Assembly (NCBI GenBank): GCA_012511955.1
Contig: JAAZFC010000099.1
Span: 1-42,661, forward strand
Direction of reading: 5' to 3'
Source of the DNA: Fibrobacter sp.
GTDB lineage: Bacteria; Fibrobacterota; Fibrobacteria; Fibrobacterales; Fibrobacteraceae
Length of the DNA stretch: 42,661 bases
In this document: positions 4,897 to 42,434 of the stretch, piece after piece
How positions within the stretch are numbered: position 1 is the stretch's first letter
Layout: every line of letters starts with the position of its first letter
Position numbers and translations under genes: made by a program
Notes under the pieces: model-generated
Told to the model about the DNA's origin: nothing
What the model saw: only the letters and a program-made list of their open reading frames with translations
Databases searched by the model: none

Positions 4897-5172
4897 TTAC
4901 TTTAAAGAACTCAATAAGTTATCAATTTCATTTTGATCGAGTATTTGCCCTGCTTCGCTTTTAGCTTCAGTTCCACTAGGGTTTGCTTCGGTCAAAATAC
5001 TGTCTATATTGTGGGTACTAGGGATGCTAAGTCCTGCATCCTTGGCGCGATACTCGTTGTAAATAGCCATAAAACTTGAAATTGGCAAACTGTAATTCCA
5101 ACGCGGATCAGACACTGCTTTACTCCAAGCAGTGTGGCAGTCAAAAAGCCATGGATAAAAGTCAGGTTTCAT
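4897..5172 (-). CDS. Small protein with a C-terminal FliM/CheZ-like CheY-binding peptide
   Basis: I do not recognise the 91-aa protein as a whole. The first half is aromatic-rich (FYPWLFDCHTAWSK, DPRWNY). Residues 55-75 are polar and probably flexible. The last 15 residues read ILDQNEIDNLLSSLK. This closely resembles the CheY-P-binding peptide at the FliM N-terminus (LSQxEIDALL) and the CheY-binding tail at the CheZ C-terminus (xVDDLLxSLGF). CheZ also carries it C-terminally. No helical hairpin of CheZ is present. The gene is divergent from a CheA hybrid kinase, 88 bases away. The inferred role is binding a CheY or receiver domain as adaptor, sink or phosphatase partner. The peptide match is visible; the function is inference. 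Confidence 0.6.
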   Translation of the reverse strand: MKPDFYPWLFDCHTAWSKAVSDPRWNYSLPISSFMAIYNEYRAKDAGLSIPSTHNIDSILTEANPSGTEAKSEAGQILDQNEIDNLLSSLK

Positions 5173-5193
5173 GTTTTTTTCTCATAATAAATA

Positions 5194-5239
5194 TATATAA
5201 AGAATTAATATTGTTTTGCAAGTTTTTTTGTGTTAAAAT
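5194..5239. promoter_or_regulatory. Divergent promoter region between the small che-linked gene and cheA
   Basis: The 88-base gap at 5173-5260 is strongly AT-rich and must drive both genes. For the minus gene, TTGCAA (5221-5216) is spaced 16 from TATATA (5199-5194). For cheA, TTGTTT (5211-5216) is spaced 17 from TAAAAT (5234-5239). The -35 elements share bases, so the two directions may compete. Confidence 0.4.
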
Positions 5240-5260
5240 AATAGGAAAAAGGTAAAACCT

Positions 5261-8200
5261 ATGATAGACAATGATGAATCCCTATTGCAAGAATATTTAT
5301 CTGAATCCTTAGAGCATCTCGAAGGAATAGAAGACTCTATTTTAAAAATAGAAGAAGACGGTTCAAACACAGATGATGAGCTAGTAAATAAAGTTTTTAG
5401 AGCTGTTCATACCATTAAAGGCGGGGCAGGTTTTTTAAATTTGCAAAACATATCAGTGGTATGTCACGCCCAAGAAAGCATCTTGAATTTAGTTCGCAAC
5501 GGAGTAATAGTACCGGATAGCGAAATTACAAACGCGTTGTTGGTTAGTATAGATACGGTGCAATTGATGTTAGAAGATATAAGCACAGAAGCTAGCACCG
5601 ATGTAAGTAGTGAATTAGAAACTTTAAATAATATTTTAAAAAAATACTCCTCAGAAACATCAGCCATGGATGGTAATATGACAGATATTAGCACAGGTTC
5701 CTTAGTCGCCCTAATTTCCAGCGATGTTTTGGAAGATTTTACTAAACGGGGGTCTTGGGTATATCAATTTACTTTTAATGTTAAAAAGCCTAAACAATAC
5801 GGATATGACAATTTTGAAAGCTTGATTTCTGTATTGGATAAAACAGGAACTATACTTGCTTCTAATAGTCCAGAATTTCAAGATGCTCCTGATGGCATTT
5901 GGGAGCTGGCTTACGCTACTATATTAGAGCCTGCATTGCTTTACCAAATGCTAAAATTGTCTGCTGAAGAAGTTATAATTATTGTCAATCAAGATAAATT
6001 GTCAGAGTCTCAATCCGCAGAGCCAGCGGCTCAACCTGTGGCTACAAAAGTGGAAAAACAAGTTGTTAGCAAAAGTGATACCCAAGCTTCTCCCATAGGG
6101 GATGCTAGTGTGTCTGTGATAACAAATTCTCCTGAGGCTTCTGAGAAAATTCGAGTAAATTTATCTGTATTAGATAAATTAATGACTTTAGCGGGGGAAC
6201 TAGTGTTGGCGCGCAACCAATTGGTGCAAAGTGTAGCCAGCAAAAATCTAGAAACCATTGAAAGTAATTCTCGACAATTGAATTTTATCACTTCAGAATT
6301 ACAAATGGCTATTATGGCTACGCGCATGCAGCCTATTGGAAATGTTTTTAGCCGTTTTCGCCGTATTGTGCGCGATATGTCGCAGAGATTAGGCAAAAAA
6401 GTTAACCTGGAAATTACCGGTGAAGATGTTGAACTCGACCGCAGTATCATAGATGCCATTGGGGATCCTTTGACTCATATAGTGCGCAACTCCATGGATC
6501 ATGGTGTAGAAGTTCCCCATATACGCGAAGCTGCTGGTAAAAATGGTACTGCGCAAATCAGTTTGAAAGCGCGTCATGAAGCGGGCATGGTGGTTATAGA
6601 AATTGTAGATGATGGGGCGGGCATAGATCCAGCTAAAATCACTGAAAAAGCCATAGAAAAAAAGCTTATAGCTGCCAGTGATGTAGAAAGATTAAGTGAA
6701 AAAGAGGTGCTAAATCTCATTTTTGCTCCTGGATTTTCCACCGCAGCTGAAGTTACCGACATTTCCGGACGAGGCGTGGGGATGGATGTGGTGCGCACAT
6801 CTTTTGCTCGTTTAGGCGGCAGCGTAGATATTTCTTCTACTCTGGGGCAGGGCACTACTTTGCAAGTTCGCTTACCTCTAACTTTGGCTATAATCCCCGC
6901 TTTAATGGTACAAGTGGGAGCCCAAGTTTTTGCCATTCCCCAAGTAAATTTACAAGAGTTGGTGCGCATAGCTCCCGACCAAATAAAGCGCCGCATCAAT
7001 AAGGTAGGGGACTCTGTGTTTTTACGCCTGCGCGAAGAACTTATCCCACTATTATCCCTAAACGAAATTCTAGAGATAAAAAGCACTTTTGTACATCCTG
7101 AAACTGGTGCTGTACAGGAAAGCCAAAGGGAACAGTTTTGGGATCGCCGTCAACTAGACGATGTGGATTTGAATGACGATAATAGAAAGCAAGAGCAAGA
7201 TCGTCGTAATCGTTTAAGCGGTTCCATTAAAATTGCTGTGGTTACCACGGGAAGTGCTTCTTTTGGCGTGGTGGTAGATGGTTTCCAAGATACCGAAGAA
7301 GTCGTGTTGAAACCCTTGGGGTCTCATTTACAAAAATGTCGTTTTTATTCTGGTGCTACTATTTTAGGTGATGGCAATCCCGCTTTGATTTTTGATGTGG
7401 GAGGAATGGCAGAAAAGTGGTTAGATTTACAAGCTGTGGATGAAGTGCGAGAAAGTATAATCCAAAATGACATTCAGGCCGATAATGAAAAGCAGTCGTT
7501 AATTTTAATGAAAGGAGGTGGTAATCAATATTACGGTGCTCCTTTGGGATTAATTACTCGCATCGAAGAAGTGGCAGCTTCAGAAATAGAAAAAGTTGCC
7601 GACAAGTTGCATATCCATTACCGCAATGAAATTTTACAGCTATTTACTTTGGATAATGTGGCTGGAGTAGAGCCTCTAGCTGAGCAAAGCACTTACAATA
7701 TTGTGGTATTTGAAGTGCAAAATAAAAGTGTTGGTTTGATAGTTTCCGAAATCATTGATGCGGTAGAAACAGATGCTTATATTGACCAAGAAGCTTATAG
7801 CCAACCCGGGATAATGGGTTCCTCTATCATAGAAGGGCGCACTACTTTTATCTTGGATTTATATGGAATTGCCATTAAAAAAATGCCGGAACTAGCTGTG
7901 CAAAGCAAGGCTTTGGGGCAAGACGAAGGCTCTGAAGAAAAATTAGTTTTAGTGGTAGATGATTCTATATTTTTCCGTACACAAATACAGAAATTTGTGG
8001 AAGAAGCGGGTTATAAAGCTGTGGTGGCCGACGATGGTGCAACGGCTTGGCCGCTTATGGAAGAGCATAATTTTACTTTAGTGCTTACAGATATAGAAAT
8101 GCCCATCATGGATGGTTTAGAGTTTACTAGGCTTATCAAGGGGCACGAGAAGTTCAAAAACATACCTGTGGTAGCCATTACTTCACTAATGGGTAGTGAG

Positions 8201-8308
8201 GCAGAGGAAAGAGGTTATCAGGCAGGGGTCGATCAATATCTAGTTAAGCTTGATAGAGAGCAAATTGTAAACACTTTAAACCATTACCACAGTGTGGGGG
8301 TGAAATGA
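5261..8308 (+). CDS. cheA: Hybrid chemotaxis histidine kinase CheA with two CheW-like domains and a receiver
   Basis: The 1015-aa kinase sits in chemoreceptor arrays and passes phosphate from ATP to response regulators. The order is: HPt with AVHTIKGGAGFL (phospho-site H50); a region at about 150-260 resembling a CheY-docking P2 domain; dimerisation helices from about 295; an HATPase with N box DPLTHIVRNSMDHG near 402, DDGAGID near 449 and GRGVGMDVV near 503; a first CheW-like domain at about 545-715; a second at about 745-880; and a C-terminal receiver (LVLVVDDS) with phospho-acceptor D944 in LTDIEMP. A classical CheA has one CheW-like domain and no receiver, so this is a hybrid form. It overlaps the following cheW by 4 bases (ATGA). 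A purine-rich ribosome site (AGGAAAAAGG) precedes the ATG. Confidence 0.93.
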   Translation: MIDNDESLLQEYLSESLEHLEGIEDSILKIEEDGSNTDDELVNKVFRAVHTIKGGAGFLNLQNISVVCHAQESILNLVRNGVIVPDSEITNALLVSIDTVQLMLEDISTEASTDVSSELETLNNILKKYSSETSAMDGNMTDISTGSLVALISSDVLEDFTKRGSWVYQFTFNVKKPKQYGYDNFESLISVLDKTGTILASNSPEFQDAPDGIWELAYATILEPALLYQMLKLSAEEVIIIVNQDKLSESQSAEPAAQPVATKVEKQVVSKSDTQASPIGDASVSVITNSPEASEKIRVNLSVLDKLMTLAGELVLARNQLVQSVASKNLETIESNSRQLNFITSELQMAIMATRMQPIGNVFSRFRRIVRDMSQRLGKKVNLEITGEDVELDRSIIDAIGDPLTHIVRNSMDHGVEVPHIREAAGKNGTAQISLKARHEAGMVVIEIVDDGAGIDPAKITEKAIEKKLIAASDVERLSEKEVLNLIFAPGFSTAAEVTDISGRGVGMDVVRTSFARLGGSVDISSTLGQGTTLQVRLPLTLAIIPALMVQVGAQVFAIPQVNLQELVRIAPDQIKRRINKVGDSVFLRLREELIPLLSLNEILEIKSTFVHPETGAVQESQREQFWDRRQLDDVDLNDDNRKQEQDRRNRLSGSIKIAVVTTGSASFGVVVDGFQDTEEVVLKPLGSHLQKCRFYSGATILGDGNPALIFDVGGMAEKWLDLQAVDEVRESIIQNDIQADNEKQSLILMKGGGNQYYGAPLGLITRIEEVAASEIEKVADKLHIHYRNEILQLFTLDNVAGVEPLAEQSTYNIVVFEVQNKSVGLIVSEIIDAVETDAYIDQEAYSQPGIMGSSIIEGRTTFILDLYGIAIKKMPELAVQSKALGQDEGSEEKLVLVVDDSIFFRTQIQKFVEEAGYKAVVADDGATAWPLMEEHNFTLVLTDIEMPIMDGLEFTRLIKGHEKFKNIPVVAITSLMGSEAEERGYQAGVDQYLVKLDREQIVNTLNHYHSVGVK

Positions 8309-8757
8309 AAGTCATAGATACTTTAGACAATATAAACTCAGGTTTAAAAAATATTTTGCTTTTTAAATCGGCAAAAGTTTTATGTGGCATAGATGTTTTA
8401 GATATCCAAGAAGTTCGCAAAGACTTTGAAATTACACCTGTACCCTTAGCCCCTAGCTATGTTACGGGGATAATGAATTTGCGTGGAGAAATCGCCACAG
8501 TGTTTGATTTGTCTTCGCGTTTAGATCTCCCCAGTAAAGGCATAACTGAGGATTCTCAAGTGATAGTATTAAAAGTGCGAGGTGGAGAATTTCAAGGTTT
8601 GTTAGTAGATGAAATAGACGATGTGCTATCAGTAAATTCAGCGGATATTTCTCAGCCAGGGCATTTATCCAATATAGACGAAAAATTTGTTGCAGGAATT
8701 TGTAAACAAGAAGAAGATTTGGTAGCTTTGCTAAATCTTGAGACTATATTATCTTAA
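8305..8757 (+). CDS. cheW: CheW-like coupling protein
   Basis: The 150-aa protein consists of one CheW domain, the adaptor that couples receptors to CheA in the array. Typical blocks are VLCGIDVLDIQEVRK, the VTGIMNLRGEIATVFDL signature (family form IxGxxNLRGxxxPVxDL) and GLLVDEIDDVL. It starts inside the cheA stop through an ATGA overlap, implying translational coupling and stoichiometric production with the kinase. It lies 13 bases before cheR. A second CheW (41916-42434) belongs to the other chemosensory locus. The two sequences differ clearly, so they probably serve separate arrays. Confidence 0.9.
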   Translation: MKVIDTLDNINSGLKNILLFKSAKVLCGIDVLDIQEVRKDFEITPVPLAPSYVTGIMNLRGEIATVFDLSSRLDLPSKGITEDSQVIVLKVRGGEFQGLLVDEIDDVLSVNSADISQPGHLSNIDEKFVAGICKQEEDLVALLNLETILS

Positions 8758-8770
8758 TGCGATGTAATAT

Positions 8771-9613
8771 ATGGCCTTAAAGTCTATTTCTGATACAGAA
8801 TACGCAGAATTTGTACAATTAGTGTACGATCTAACAGGAATTATTCTTGATAATTCCAAAAAGTATCTTATTGAAACGCGTATTGGTCCTATAATCCAAG
8901 AGCAAGGTTTAGGGTCTTATGGCGAATTATTACAAAAAATTCGTTTGCCCACTAATGCTTTTTTCAAAGAGTTGGTCATAGATGCTATTACCACCAATGA
9001 GACATTTTTCTTTAGAGAACCTTGTGCCATCGACTTGTTGCGTCGGCGTTTAATGCCGCCAATTTTAGACTCTATTACTGAAGGTAAAAGGCGTGATTCT
9101 ATGCGTATATGGAGTGCGGCTTGTTCTTCGGGACAAGAAATGTACTCCATAGCTATTAGTGCCATGGAATTCATTGGTGATTTGGCTACCCAATATATTT
9201 CTTTAGATGGCACCGATATAAGTGAGCAAATTTTAGCTAAAGCTAGCATGGGGGTTTACAGTCAGTTTGAAGTTAATAGGGGGCTTAATGCTACTCATCT
9301 GAGTAAATATTTTACTCCTCATTCCCAGGGATATAAAATCAATGATAATATCCGTGCCATGTGTCGTTTTAATAAGGCAAACTTGTTGCGTTTAGCACCT
9401 TCGCCTGTGCGTTACGATGTGATTTTTTGCCGTAATGTGAGTATATATTTTGGAGCTAAAGAACGAGAAGTTCTTTTTAGATCCTTGGGAGAAAGGTTAG
9501 TACCCAATGGAGTATTGATTGTGGGGGCCACTGAGCAAGTGCGTGACTGTGATGATCTCTATTCTTTAGAAAAAGATTTTCCCGGCTGTTTTTACTATAG
9601 GAGAAGGCACTAA
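8771..9613 (+). CDS. cheR: Chemotaxis protein methyltransferase CheR
   Basis: The 280-aa enzyme uses SAM to methylate glutamates on chemoreceptors, the adaptation arm of chemotaxis. An N-terminal helical domain (EYAEFVQLVYDLTGI) is followed by TTNETFFFREP, the SAM-binding block RIWSAACSSGQEMYSIAI (family form RIWSAGCSTGEEPYSLAM), LDGTDIS and FCRNVSIYF. All are CheR hallmarks in the right order and spacing. No cheB methylesterase lies in the window. The stop codon overlaps the start of the PilZ gene by one base (TAATG). No convincing Shine-Dalgarno sequence precedes the ATG, so translation may depend on coupling to cheW. Confidence 0.93.
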   Translation: MALKSISDTEYAEFVQLVYDLTGIILDNSKKYLIETRIGPIIQEQGLGSYGELLQKIRLPTNAFFKELVIDAITTNETFFFREPCAIDLLRRRLMPPILDSITEGKRRDSMRIWSAACSSGQEMYSIAISAMEFIGDLATQYISLDGTDISEQILAKASMGVYSQFEVNRGLNATHLSKYFTPHSQGYKINDNIRAMCRFNKANLLRLAPSPVRYDVIFCRNVSIYFGAKEREVLFRSLGERLVPNGVLIVGATEQVRDCDDLYSLEKDFPGCFYYRRRH

Positions 9614-9948
9614 TGGAAGAACGAAGAAAGCGCCCACGCACTAACATGGAAGTGGAGTTCGAAGTGGGAAACGCTGATGGCTGGTTTAAAGCGCACAATA
9701 GCAAAGATTTAAGTATGAGTGGCGTACAAATATGCAGTAACCACAATTTTGCTTTGGGTAGTGAAGTTAAAATACGCTTAGCCATAAAAGATGTCCATGC
9801 CGAGTTAAAAAATGAGGAAGTTTTGGCTGAGGTTAAAAGAGTTAGTCAAATTAAAGTGGATCAGTGGTGTATTGGTTTAGAATTTAAGCAACTAAGTAGC
9901 GATGCCTCTATATTTTTGTACAATTTGATCAGATACCATAGCGATTAA
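9613..9948 (+). CDS. PilZ-domain protein (probable cyclic di-GMP receptor)
   Basis: The 111-aa protein is a single PilZ domain. It starts with the arginine motif ERRKRPR (RxxxR formed by R5 and R9). The second c-di-GMP motif, D/NxSxxG, appears as DLSMSG at residues 32-37, followed by the expected beta strands and GLEFKQL near the end. Both ligand motifs are intact, so c-di-GMP binding is likely. It overlaps cheR by one base and ends the che part of the operon, nine bases before xseA. This placement suggests that c-di-GMP level feeds into the CheA-CheW-CheR pathway. The direct target cannot be seen. Confidence 0.88.
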   Translation: MEERRKRPRTNMEVEFEVGNADGWFKAHNSKDLSMSGVQICSNHNFALGSEVKIRLAIKDVHAELKNEEVLAEVKRVSQIKVDQWCIGLEFKQLSSDASIFLYNLIRYHSD

Positions 9949-39340: not shown

Positions 39341-41899
39341 ATGACTGATGATGGGTCAGATAGCGAAATATTAAGTTTACTTTCACAGTTAGAAGTTTTA
39401 GTAAATCAGATGAATGTTCATGATTTGCCCACTTTGGTAAATCTTTTTCCTATCATAGATAAAATTAATTGCTGCGATAAAATTCCTTCAGCTTTTGTGG
39501 CTAAAACTTGTCGCATCAAAGAAGATATAGAAGCTGCTATAATGGGTGAAACAGTTTTAGAGAGTGTGTTGCCCAGAATTAAACATGGACTTTTTACGGC
39601 TATATCTAGTTTAAGCCCTTCTACTAATGTAGTTGCAGAAAAGAAAAGTTCACCTATGAAGTCTTTGCCAGAGAAAGAACCGTCCTCTAAAAGCGAAATT
39701 ACTGTAGAAGTTGATTTGGATTTAGTGCGAAAATTCTGTGATGAACAACAAAATCATTTAGAAGACTTAGAGATATACGCCTTAGAATGGGAAAAAGGTT
39801 GTGCCCAAGCTTTACCTGAAATAAAGCGTTATTTACATACTTTAAAAGGCGAGTTTGGGGTTTTAAATTACCCTCAACTGGCGAATTTAATCCATATAGT
39901 AGAAGATGCCCTAGATCAAGATAAATTTAGTGCCGATTATCTTTTACGACTAAAAGATTATTTAAGTAATGTAATGCCATTGCTGTACAAAGGGCAAAGT
40001 GCTGAAATAGAAACTAAGGATTTGATAGAGCTTGGACTAGCAGTCGCAGAAGAAAAAATAGAAAAGGCCGAAAATCCTGAGGAAACTAACACAGATTTTG
40101 CCAATGATCCCAGTTTTGTCATAGATTTTATATAAGAGTCCCTAGAGCATATAGCTGATATGGAAGCTAATTTGCTCCAACTAGACGATGACCTAAACAA
40201 TATTGAAAGATTACATACCTTTTTTAGAGCTTGTCATACCATTAAAGGTTTGGCGGGTTTTTTACGATTTGATGATATTCAAGAGTTGGCCCATGTTGTA
40301 GAAACTTTAGTGGATGAATTGCGCGAGGGTAAATTTGAAGTTAAACATTGCCATGTGGATGTGCTTTTTACCGCCGTGGATTTATTTAAGGACTTATTTG
40401 AGGTGGTGCGTGCTAGTTTAGAGGGGGTTACATTGGTGCGCCCTACAAACTTTGCTAAGGTGCTTAAATGCTTAGTTAATGTAAATAGAAGCGATTGTGA
40501 TTTCAAAGTGGATCCTACCAAAAAGCTAGGTGAAGTTTTAGTGGATGCGGGTATCATTCACCCAAAAAGAGTGGAAACAGCCATTGTTAAGCAGGTCAGG
40601 GGAGATAAACGCAAAGTGGGGGAGATTTTAGTAGAAGAATCGGTGATTACTCCCCAAACTGTGGAAAAAGTGTTACACGCGCAAAAAGAAGGGCGTTCTA
40701 AACGCTCATCTGAAATAATAGAAGAATCCGTGCGAGTGCCAGTACGCCGTTTGGATCATCTCATAGACTCCATTGGCGAAGCGGTAATTGCCCAATCCAT
40801 GATTGCAGCGGATCCTTTAATTAATGATGAAAATTTTGAAGCCAGTGGGGCAGATAGAGAATTACTGCGCTTAAAGGTAGCCCGAGCCGAAGTTATCATG
40901 CGCCAAATCCAAGAACTTTCCATGTCTTTGCGCATGGTTTCCATTAGGAGTGTTTTTCAAAAAATGGGTCGCTTGGTGCGAGATTTATCGCGGGAAACTG
41001 GTAAAAAAGTGGATTTAATTTTAGAGGGAGAAAACACTGAATTAGACAAAACCGTCATCGAAAACATAGGCGACCCCTTGGTGCACATGGTGCGCAACGC
41101 TTTGGATCATGGCTTGGAAACTGTGGAAGAGCGTTTGGCTAATAATAAACCCGAGCAAGGCACGCTGAAGCTGCATGCTTTTCACTGTGCGGGCAATGTG
41201 CATATAGAAATCAAAGATGATGGGCGTGGTTTAGATAAAGCTCAAATTTTAAATAAAGCCATAGAGCGAGGTATTGTAGATGGCAAGCAAAGCTTGTCTG
41301 ATACCGAGATTTACAATTTGATTTTTGCTCCTGGATTTTCCACCGCAGCGGAAGTTACCAATATTTCTGGGCGTGGGGTGGGCATGGATGTGGTGCGTAA
41401 AAACATTGAAGAACTGCGCGGTTCCGTAGAAATTAGTTCTGAATTAGGTCGTGGCACTACTTTTACCATCGCATTGCCCCTTACTTTGGCCATTATTGAC
41501 GGTATGGTGGTGAGTTTAGATAGTGAACGCTATATAGTTCCCACTTTGAGTATTGTTACTACAGTGGCTTTGGAATCTGGAATGATTTCCACTGTGGCCG
41601 GTAAAGGCGAAGTTATCACTTTACGGGGCGAACTGGTGCGCTTGGTGCGTTTAGAACATCTTTTTAATGAAGCTACTACTTGGCAAAATTCAAAAAATGG
41701 CGTGGTAGTGGTTCTCAGCGACTCTACGGGGAAAAAAGTGGGGCTTTTGGTAGATGAAATTTTGGAACAACAGCAGGTAGTAATCAAAAACATGGGAGGT
41801 TCTATAGTCGAAGTCCCCGGTATCAGTGGGGGTGCAATTATGAATGATGGCACTGTTAGTCTTATTATAGATGTGGCAATGCTATTGAGACAAATTTAA
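39341..41899 (+). pseudogene. CheA-type kinase with two HPt domains and MshEN-like motifs, frame interrupted by one TAA
   Basis: Read through one stop, the frame encodes an 852-residue chemotaxis kinase. The first HPt has LHTLKGEFGVL (H166). The second HPt has ACHTIKGLAGFL (H299). Tandem MshEN-like motifs lie at 395-448. Then come dimerisation helices, an HATPase (GDPLVHMVRNALDHG near 575, KDDGRGLD, FAPGFSTAAEVTNISGRG) and one C-terminal CheW-like domain. No receiver is present. The TAA at 40133-40135 (residue 265) falls in DFI-TAA-ESLEHI at the start of the second HPt, where Glu or Gln is common, so GAA or CAA to TAA is a single change. Restart at ATG 40160 would give a 579-aa kinase whose second HPt lacks the first part of its opening helix. 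Sequencing error, truncation or readthrough are the options. Confidence 0.85.
40523..40684 (+). other. Tandem MshEN-like 24-residue motifs inside the second CheA
   Basis: Two 24-residue repeats run from KLGEVLVDAGII to a final Q (40523-40594) and from KVGEILVEESVIT to a final Q (40613-40684), separated by six residues. The pattern xLGxxLxxxGxIxxxxVxxxxxxQ is that of the MshEN/GspE N-terminal c-di-GMP-binding fold. Position 1 is Lys instead of Arg in both, and the second motif has Ser for Gly at position 10. Confidence 0.65.
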
Positions 41900-41915
41900 T
41901 AACAGAGGAGATGTT

Positions 41916-42434
41916 ATGGCAGAAAACACCGAAAACGCTAGCGTGGCTGATAACGAAGTAGGTTTAGCCTTGGCTGGCAAATATCTAACCTTTTTCCTTG
42001 CCGAAGAAGAATACGGACTAAAGATTCTTAAGGTGCAGGAAATTATCCAAATGCAAACCATTACTCGAGTACCCCGTACTCCTGATTTTGTGCGTGGCGT
42101 GATCAACTTGCGAGGCAAAGTGATACCCGTGGTGGAGTTGCGCAAAAAATTTGACCTTCCCACGGTGGAAGATACGGAAAGAACTTGCATTATAGTGGTG
42201 CAGATTCAACAAAAAGCTGAAACTGTAATAATGGGAGTAATCATAGACGAAGTACGCGAAGTCTTAGACATTGAGGCGGAAAACATCGAAGAAGCTCCAT
42301 CATTTGGCGCCAGCATAGACACGGACTTTATTTTAGGAATGGGAAAGTTCGAGCAAAGTGTTAAAATACTCTTGGATATAGATAGAGTGCTAAGTAACGA
42401 TGAACTAGAATCAATAAATAAACTAGGCAATTAA
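41916..42434 (+). CDS. cheW: CheW coupling protein of the second chemosensory locus
   Basis: The 172-aa protein is a clear CheW: KYLTFFLAEEEYGLKILKVQEI, ITRVPRTPDFVRGVINLRGKVIPVVELRKKF (signature VxGxxNLRGxxIPVxDLRxxF) and VIMGVIIDEVREVLDI. It links receptors to the kinase. An N-terminal extension of about 20 polar residues (MAENTENASVADNEV) precedes the domain. GAGGAG sits 5-7 bases before the ATG. It follows the second cheA by 17 bases and precedes an MCP gene by 19 bases, the usual kinase-adaptor-receptor order. It is a more canonical CheW than the one at 8305. Confidence 0.95.
   Translation: MAENTENASVADNEVGLALAGKYLTFFLAEEEYGLKILKVQEIIQMQTITRVPRTPDFVRGVINLRGKVIPVVELRKKFDLPTVEDTERTCIIVVQIQQKAETVIMGVIIDEVREVLDIEAENIEEAPSFGASIDTDFILGMGKFEQSVKILLDIDRVLSNDELESINKLGN

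Follow-up and report, generated by a model that had tools for sequence, protein, structure and literature searches.

A small Fibrobacteres protein with a conserved FliM-type tail, encoded mostly beside chemotaxis genes: a candidate accessory docking protein for CheY-P

Docking peptides for CheY-P are known on FliM, FliY and CheZ. To our knowledge, no chemotaxis component of motile Fibrobacteres has been studied biochemically. The N-terminal peptide of FliM serves only to capture CheY-P, prior to binding at the middle domain (PMC9126983). Here, K119 of CheY forms a salt bridge with the Asp of the FliM EID (PMC7012829). Dedicated adaptors have also been described. Archaeal CheF, a large PH-domain dimer, links CheY-P, bound at its C-terminus, to the archaellum motor, which its N-terminus faces (PMC9126983). 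In Campylobacter, CheO is a lineage-specific extra chemotaxis protein that joins the pathway to the switch, and binds CheA, CheZ, FliM and FliY (PMC9665402).

The window, a contig of 42,661 nucleotides from Fibrobacter sp., contains a small gene at 4897-5172 on the minus strand, which starts with ATG and encodes 91 aa ending exactly in ILDQNEIDNLLSSLK. A preliminary description of this DNA had placed the gene divergent from a CheA hybrid, and this is so: the CheA-receiver ORF (5261-8308, plus strand) begins 88 bp away. The parts of the locus are given below, with the basis of each in brackets.

4897..5172, minus strand: 91-aa protein with an N-domain, a disordered linker and a FliM-like, putatively CheY-docking tail (ORF, 13 homologues)
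5035..5172, minus strand: N-terminal domain, residues 1-46, PWLFD..AW......P...Y..P....M..Y...R (invariant columns, AF2)
4948..5034, minus strand: linker, residues 47-75 (pLDDT; variable length and sequence among relatives)
4900..4947, minus strand: C-terminal FliM-N-like, putative CheY-docking helix, residues 76-91, QILDQNEIDNLLSSLK (invariant residues, matrix score, AF2, pN/pS)
5173..5260, no strand: intergenic region of 88 bp separating cheA from the divergent small gene (ORF coordinates)
5261..8308, plus strand: cheA hybrid with Hpt, H-kinase_dim, HATPase_c, three CheW-type stretches and a C-terminal receiver (Pfam)
8305..8757, plus strand: cheW (Pfam CheW)
8771..9613, plus strand: cheR (Pfam CheR)
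9613..9948, plus strand: PilZ-domain protein of the che operon (Pfam PilZ)

The N-domain is strongly conserved. In the family alignment, W8, L9, F10, D11, A15, W16, P23, Y27, P30, M35, Y38 and R42 are invariant, and the pattern M-P-x-F-F-P-W-L-F-D-D-x-x-A-W-E-K...P-I-D-x-F-M-x-x-Y-x-x-x-R is common to all members. AlphaFold2, run with an alignment of the small-protein family, predicts helices at residues 13-20 and 31-45, with a mean pLDDT of 84 for the domain and of about 90 over residues 11-40. The linker, which in the relatives is rich in Ala and Pro and varies in length and sequence, is predicted to be disordered (pLDDT <50 at residues 51-64 and 66-72). A further helix is predicted in the tail at residues 80-89, and the small protein has no membrane segment.

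Outside the tail, the protein resembles neither FliM nor CheZ, as the preliminary description had stated. No family in Pfam, NCBIfam or the PDB fits the 91-aa protein, and Foldseek gave no significant hit with either the full model or the N-domain alone. Two Pfam matches, SLT_4 (E=0.0014; 2 of 11 members, below the cut-off) and DUF5301 (E=0.15), were too weak and inconsistent to be accepted; the PDB profile matches, a low-complexity Ala/Pro likeness to ribosomal stalk proteins, were also rejected. Judged by sequence, the small protein is a new family.

The tail is of the FliM type. The family consensus is GILSQDEIDALLSGL, and the window protein has ILDQNEIDNLLSSLK; relatives end in (G)ILSQ[DE]EIDALLSG[LIS], and the window and one relative (G010) have ILxQNEIDNLL. 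L78, Q80, E82, I83, D84, L86, L87 and S88 are invariant, and D84 is the Asp of the EID. In all 14 members the tail lies at the extreme C-terminus, with the motif 3-5 residues from the end. An 11-position matrix, trained only on FliM N-termini from genomes outside the taxonomic family of the window, scored the window tail at 22.0 bits and those of the relatives at 26.5-35.7 bits; the best other six-frame ORF reached 11.4 bits (about 1040-1050 ORFs, 11 loci). The peptide had been likened to both FliM and CheZ, and the first likeness is by far the stronger; the E. coli CheZ tail scored -5.6 bits. In addition, the family profile (A1) matches a FliM N-terminus with E=0.004. A six-frame search of the 2.68 Mb genome for the pattern LxQxE[IV]DxL gave two sites, against none in a reversed control. 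The second LxQxEIDxL site is within a 285-aa ORF and the second EID[ND]LL site within a large coiled-coil ATPase-like ORF, both away from the C-terminus. As C-terminal conservation, matrix scores and the rarity of the pattern agree, the likeness to FliM is not due to chance. Among relatives, pN/pS is 0.05 for the tail versus 0.19 for the N-domain, a comparison qualified by the overlap, in most of them, of a downstream gene with the end of the small gene. In the literature, the nearest functional counterpart of the tail is the Caulobacter FliM peptide ...RILNQDEIDSLLG (ILNQDEIDSLLG), which binds the CheY-like protein CleD by NMR, binding that fails when ID is changed to WA (PMC5677366).

A separate match was seen to phrog_31201 (PHROG 31201), a short phage protein family of 35 positions. 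Here, the likeness is confined to 11 tail residues (10 of 11 members; best E 0.0055) and the family was not taken as a relative; the match may reflect a CheY-binding peptide in phage, or chance.

Among the genomes searched, the distribution of the small protein is narrow and follows that of the flagellum. A search of 60 relatives gave 10 convincing homologues, and extending this by profile to 168 genomes of the phylum brought the total to 14, every one inside the window's own taxonomic family (111 genomes); one copy, in G094, is split over two contig ends. A plasmid search and a single-sequence scan of a broader genome contig collection gave no match to the small protein, and a profile scan of that collection gave at least 7 loci, which among the matches listed were all from 'Candidatus Fibrimonas' or relatives. 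The named records with matches are termite-gut 'Candidatus Fibrimonas' and Fibrimonadales MAGs. Such an origin has been reported for the Fibrimonas group, together with the view that the ancestor of Fibrobacteres had flagella and that relatives of Fibrobacter have lost them (PMC4704652); the distribution of FliM and the small protein matches this view.

The window itself was said to be free of flagellar genes; none were found among the ORFs scanned, and the flagellar cluster of the same genome is on another contig (C134), with FliM (MSDILSQDEVDALLTAV...) and FliY (MSDGLLSQEDIDAL...), the latter made up of FliN and CheC/CheX-type domains. Of the 111 genomes, 13 have FliM, and all 13 have the small protein. 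The sole carrier without FliM is G094, which is 62% complete. For this co-occurrence Fisher's test gives p=5e-16 with phylogeny ignored, a value that overstates independence since carriers group by descent. In G036 (87% complete), CheA, CheX and FliY were found, and FliM and the small gene both were not; this genome may have assembly gaps, or may be from a flagellate that lacks the small protein.

The strengths of the FliM peptide and of the tail are opposed in a contrast drawn between two clades only. Within the g6/g8 clade, the peptide of FliM itself has decayed in steps, to EIDAML and then to EIDKMM or AIDSFM (15-28 bits), while the small-protein tail is canonical throughout (32-36 bits). 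In g1/g11 the pattern is reversed, with a canonical FliM peptide and a weaker tail. The FliM N-peptide of the window genome is intact, so FliM there has no need of the small protein as a substitute. Degenerate peptides (EIDKMM, AIDSFM) were observed in termite-gut Fibrimonas relatives (L054, L056, L057, L063 and L067), an unusual finding, since the motif is regarded as universal among motile bacteria. One genome, G029, has a second, divergent FliM (LSEKEIDQLL; L041, G029:C111), possibly through MAG contamination.

As a binding partner for the tail, the CheY encoded beside cheX on contig C76 is the likely candidate. It is identical to E. coli CheY at 64 of 120 positions, and retains A90, K92, I95, Y106, V108, K109, F111, L116 and K119 (E. 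coli numbering), which we take to be the FliM-docking surface of E. coli CheY. Phosphorylation-dependent binding of CheY by the small protein is quite probable. The C-terminal helix (L-x-Q-x-E-I-D-x-L-L) would bind the alpha4-beta5-alpha5 face of phosphorylated CheY, the same contact as that made by the FliM N-terminus. The linker would be a flexible tether and the N-domain (residues 1-46) an anchor, with the flagellar switch complex as its most likely fixed partner, an arrangement that would concentrate CheY-P near the FliM middle domain. A conserved N-domain, a flexible linker and a docking helix together point to such an anchor-and-capture device, and the switch is suggested as the partner by the decay of the g6/g8 FliM peptide beside a canonical tail, with the reverse in g1/g11. 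Sequence and fold searches identified no partner of the N-domain. The small protein would then be a 'FliM-N' supplied as a separate subunit, and this accessory CheY-P docking protein at the switch is the explanation that we tentatively prefer, at slightly short of an even chance. That a small protein with a CheY-docking tail is encoded here, possibly as an adaptor, had been proposed from the window alone. The new family is consistent with this and an adaptor is probable; a tail that varied among homologues would have spoken against the proposal, and it is instead conserved.

By analogy with the two steps of FliM, the capture step could be outsourced to the small protein. It is possible, though doubtful, that a stand-alone CheY-P-capturing subunit took over this step in one Fibrobacteres lineage, letting the FliM peptide decay. 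If so, CheY binding and torque switching, two functions of FliM, would be separable in nature, and the small protein would define a new class of chemotaxis proteins in bacteria. It would also put the two-step model of switch activation to a test provided by nature. For motile Fibrobacteres, a likely missing chemotaxis component is added.

The main rival is suggested by the gene neighbourhood. The small gene adjoins che genes, outside the flagellar cluster: a che neighbour, either head-to-head cheA-cheW-cheR or adjacent cheX, is present in 9 of 11 loci and absent only in G034 and G014. In the window and G010, the small gene is divergent from cheA-cheW-cheR-pilZ-xseA, with cheX following pilZ in G010, so that there the che operon ends in cheX. 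In seven other genomes it adjoins cheX-xseA directly or, in G007, via a DUF2334 gene. The tail may capture CheY-P while CheX (or the CheA array) is bound through the N-domain, delivering CheY-P to the phosphatase by a CheZ-like logic in which the active site is on a separate protein. CheX has ExxN but lacks a docking peptide, which FliY has, and CheZ was above the cut-off in no genome of the taxonomic family. We consider this reading rather unlikely, as CheX enzymes elsewhere are not known to need an adaptor, cheX of the window genome is on another contig, paired with cheY, and the decay of the FliM peptide is left unexplained.

Other features of these neighbourhoods were recorded. In G034 (L029:9242-10339), the small gene is divergent from small coiled-coil, ZapA-like and FliJ-like genes, named by eye, and there is no cheX. 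The DUF2334 gene overlaps the small gene by ~22 nt (L032:6985-7007, with equivalents in g6/g8 genomes), and its first in-frame ATG sits within the EIDALL codons (GATGC). This arrangement suggests translational coupling and may add constraint on the last tail codons in that clade; the overlap is absent from the window and G010. The right end of the window (39341-42434) has a second chemosensory cluster, with an Hpt-domain protein, a second CheA (579 aa, without receiver) and CheW.

A small protein with a linker, a docking peptide and no membrane segment could also be a soluble competitor or sink, binding CheY-P away from FliM and lowering switching frequency or buffering the signal, since FliM-N and a FliM-type peptide would be rivals for one face of CheY. 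This is distinctly unlikely: a pure sink could do without a strongly conserved N-domain, here with 12 invariant residues beyond Met1, unless the domain only oligomerises, and decay of the FliM peptide would be unfavourable.

It is improbable that the helix docks a different receiver or protein, e.g., the CheA receiver or a cell-pole factor. In its favour, helices are generically capped by sequences such as LSxEEIDxLL, 28 receiver matches were counted in the genome, and the receiver of the divergently encoded CheA is close at hand. Nonetheless, the co-occurrence is with the flagellum, and docking residues are absent from two other aligned receivers and lost from that of CheA (A90M, K92S, I95E, K119T). 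The suggestion that the protein docks the CheA receiver is thus not borne out, as the residues lost there are kept in the genome's CheY. One CheY-like receiver gene, at L165 (G000:C48:34698-35045), has an in-frame TAG stop.

The earlier proposal of a phosphatase analogue, in which the small protein itself dephosphorylates CheY-P, draws on a CheZ-like layout of upstream helices, linker and C-terminal CheY-binding helix, and is very improbable because D11 is the only invariant acidic or amide column of an N-domain far shorter than the CheZ four-helix bundle, no ExxN or D/E-Q pair is conserved there, as known CheC/CheX/CheZ chemistry would need, and CheX and FliY, with ExxN, already provide the activity.

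How the candidate docking protein compares with the known systems can now be set out. CheZ shares its layout, an upstream domain, a flexible linker and a C-terminal CheY-binding helix. However, the small protein has a FliM-type tail and lacks the catalytic Gln and long helical bundle; it has no match to the CheZ domain (PF04344) and no invariant Gln in its N-domain. With the CheX/CheC/FliY phosphatases it shares a locus, CheX being a gene neighbour, but neither a CheX/CheC domain, an ExxN active site nor an invariant acid/amide pair was found in it. CheF is alike as a dedicated adaptor, although it binds CheY near the phosphorylation site and not by an EIDALL helix (PMC9126983); the N-domain of the small protein, at ~46 residues, is predicted to be helical, lacks CheF-type PH-like domains and a dimeric tail, and has no sequence or fold match in the PDB. 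CheO, compared by description, is alike in being lineage-specific, but did not bind CheY in pull-downs (PMC9665402).

The closest likeness is to the FliM/FliY N-peptide (EIDALL). The tail matches ILSQxE[IV]DxLL residue for residue, has a predicted helix and the same key Asp, and is conserved among homologues as in proteins with FliM-type docking peptides (14 of 14; pN/pS 0.05). In FliM the peptide is N-terminal, whereas the small protein carries it C-terminally, in the reversed order of anchor, linker and peptide. The small protein is also separate, at 91-119 aa, and the 11 members scanned had no Pfam match to the FliM middle domain (PF02154) or the FliN-like C-domain, FliM being a separate gene. 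The docking motif is already known; what is new, as far as the literature searched shows, is its occurrence on a small protein of its own, which points to CheY-P capture as a module able to pass from one protein to another.
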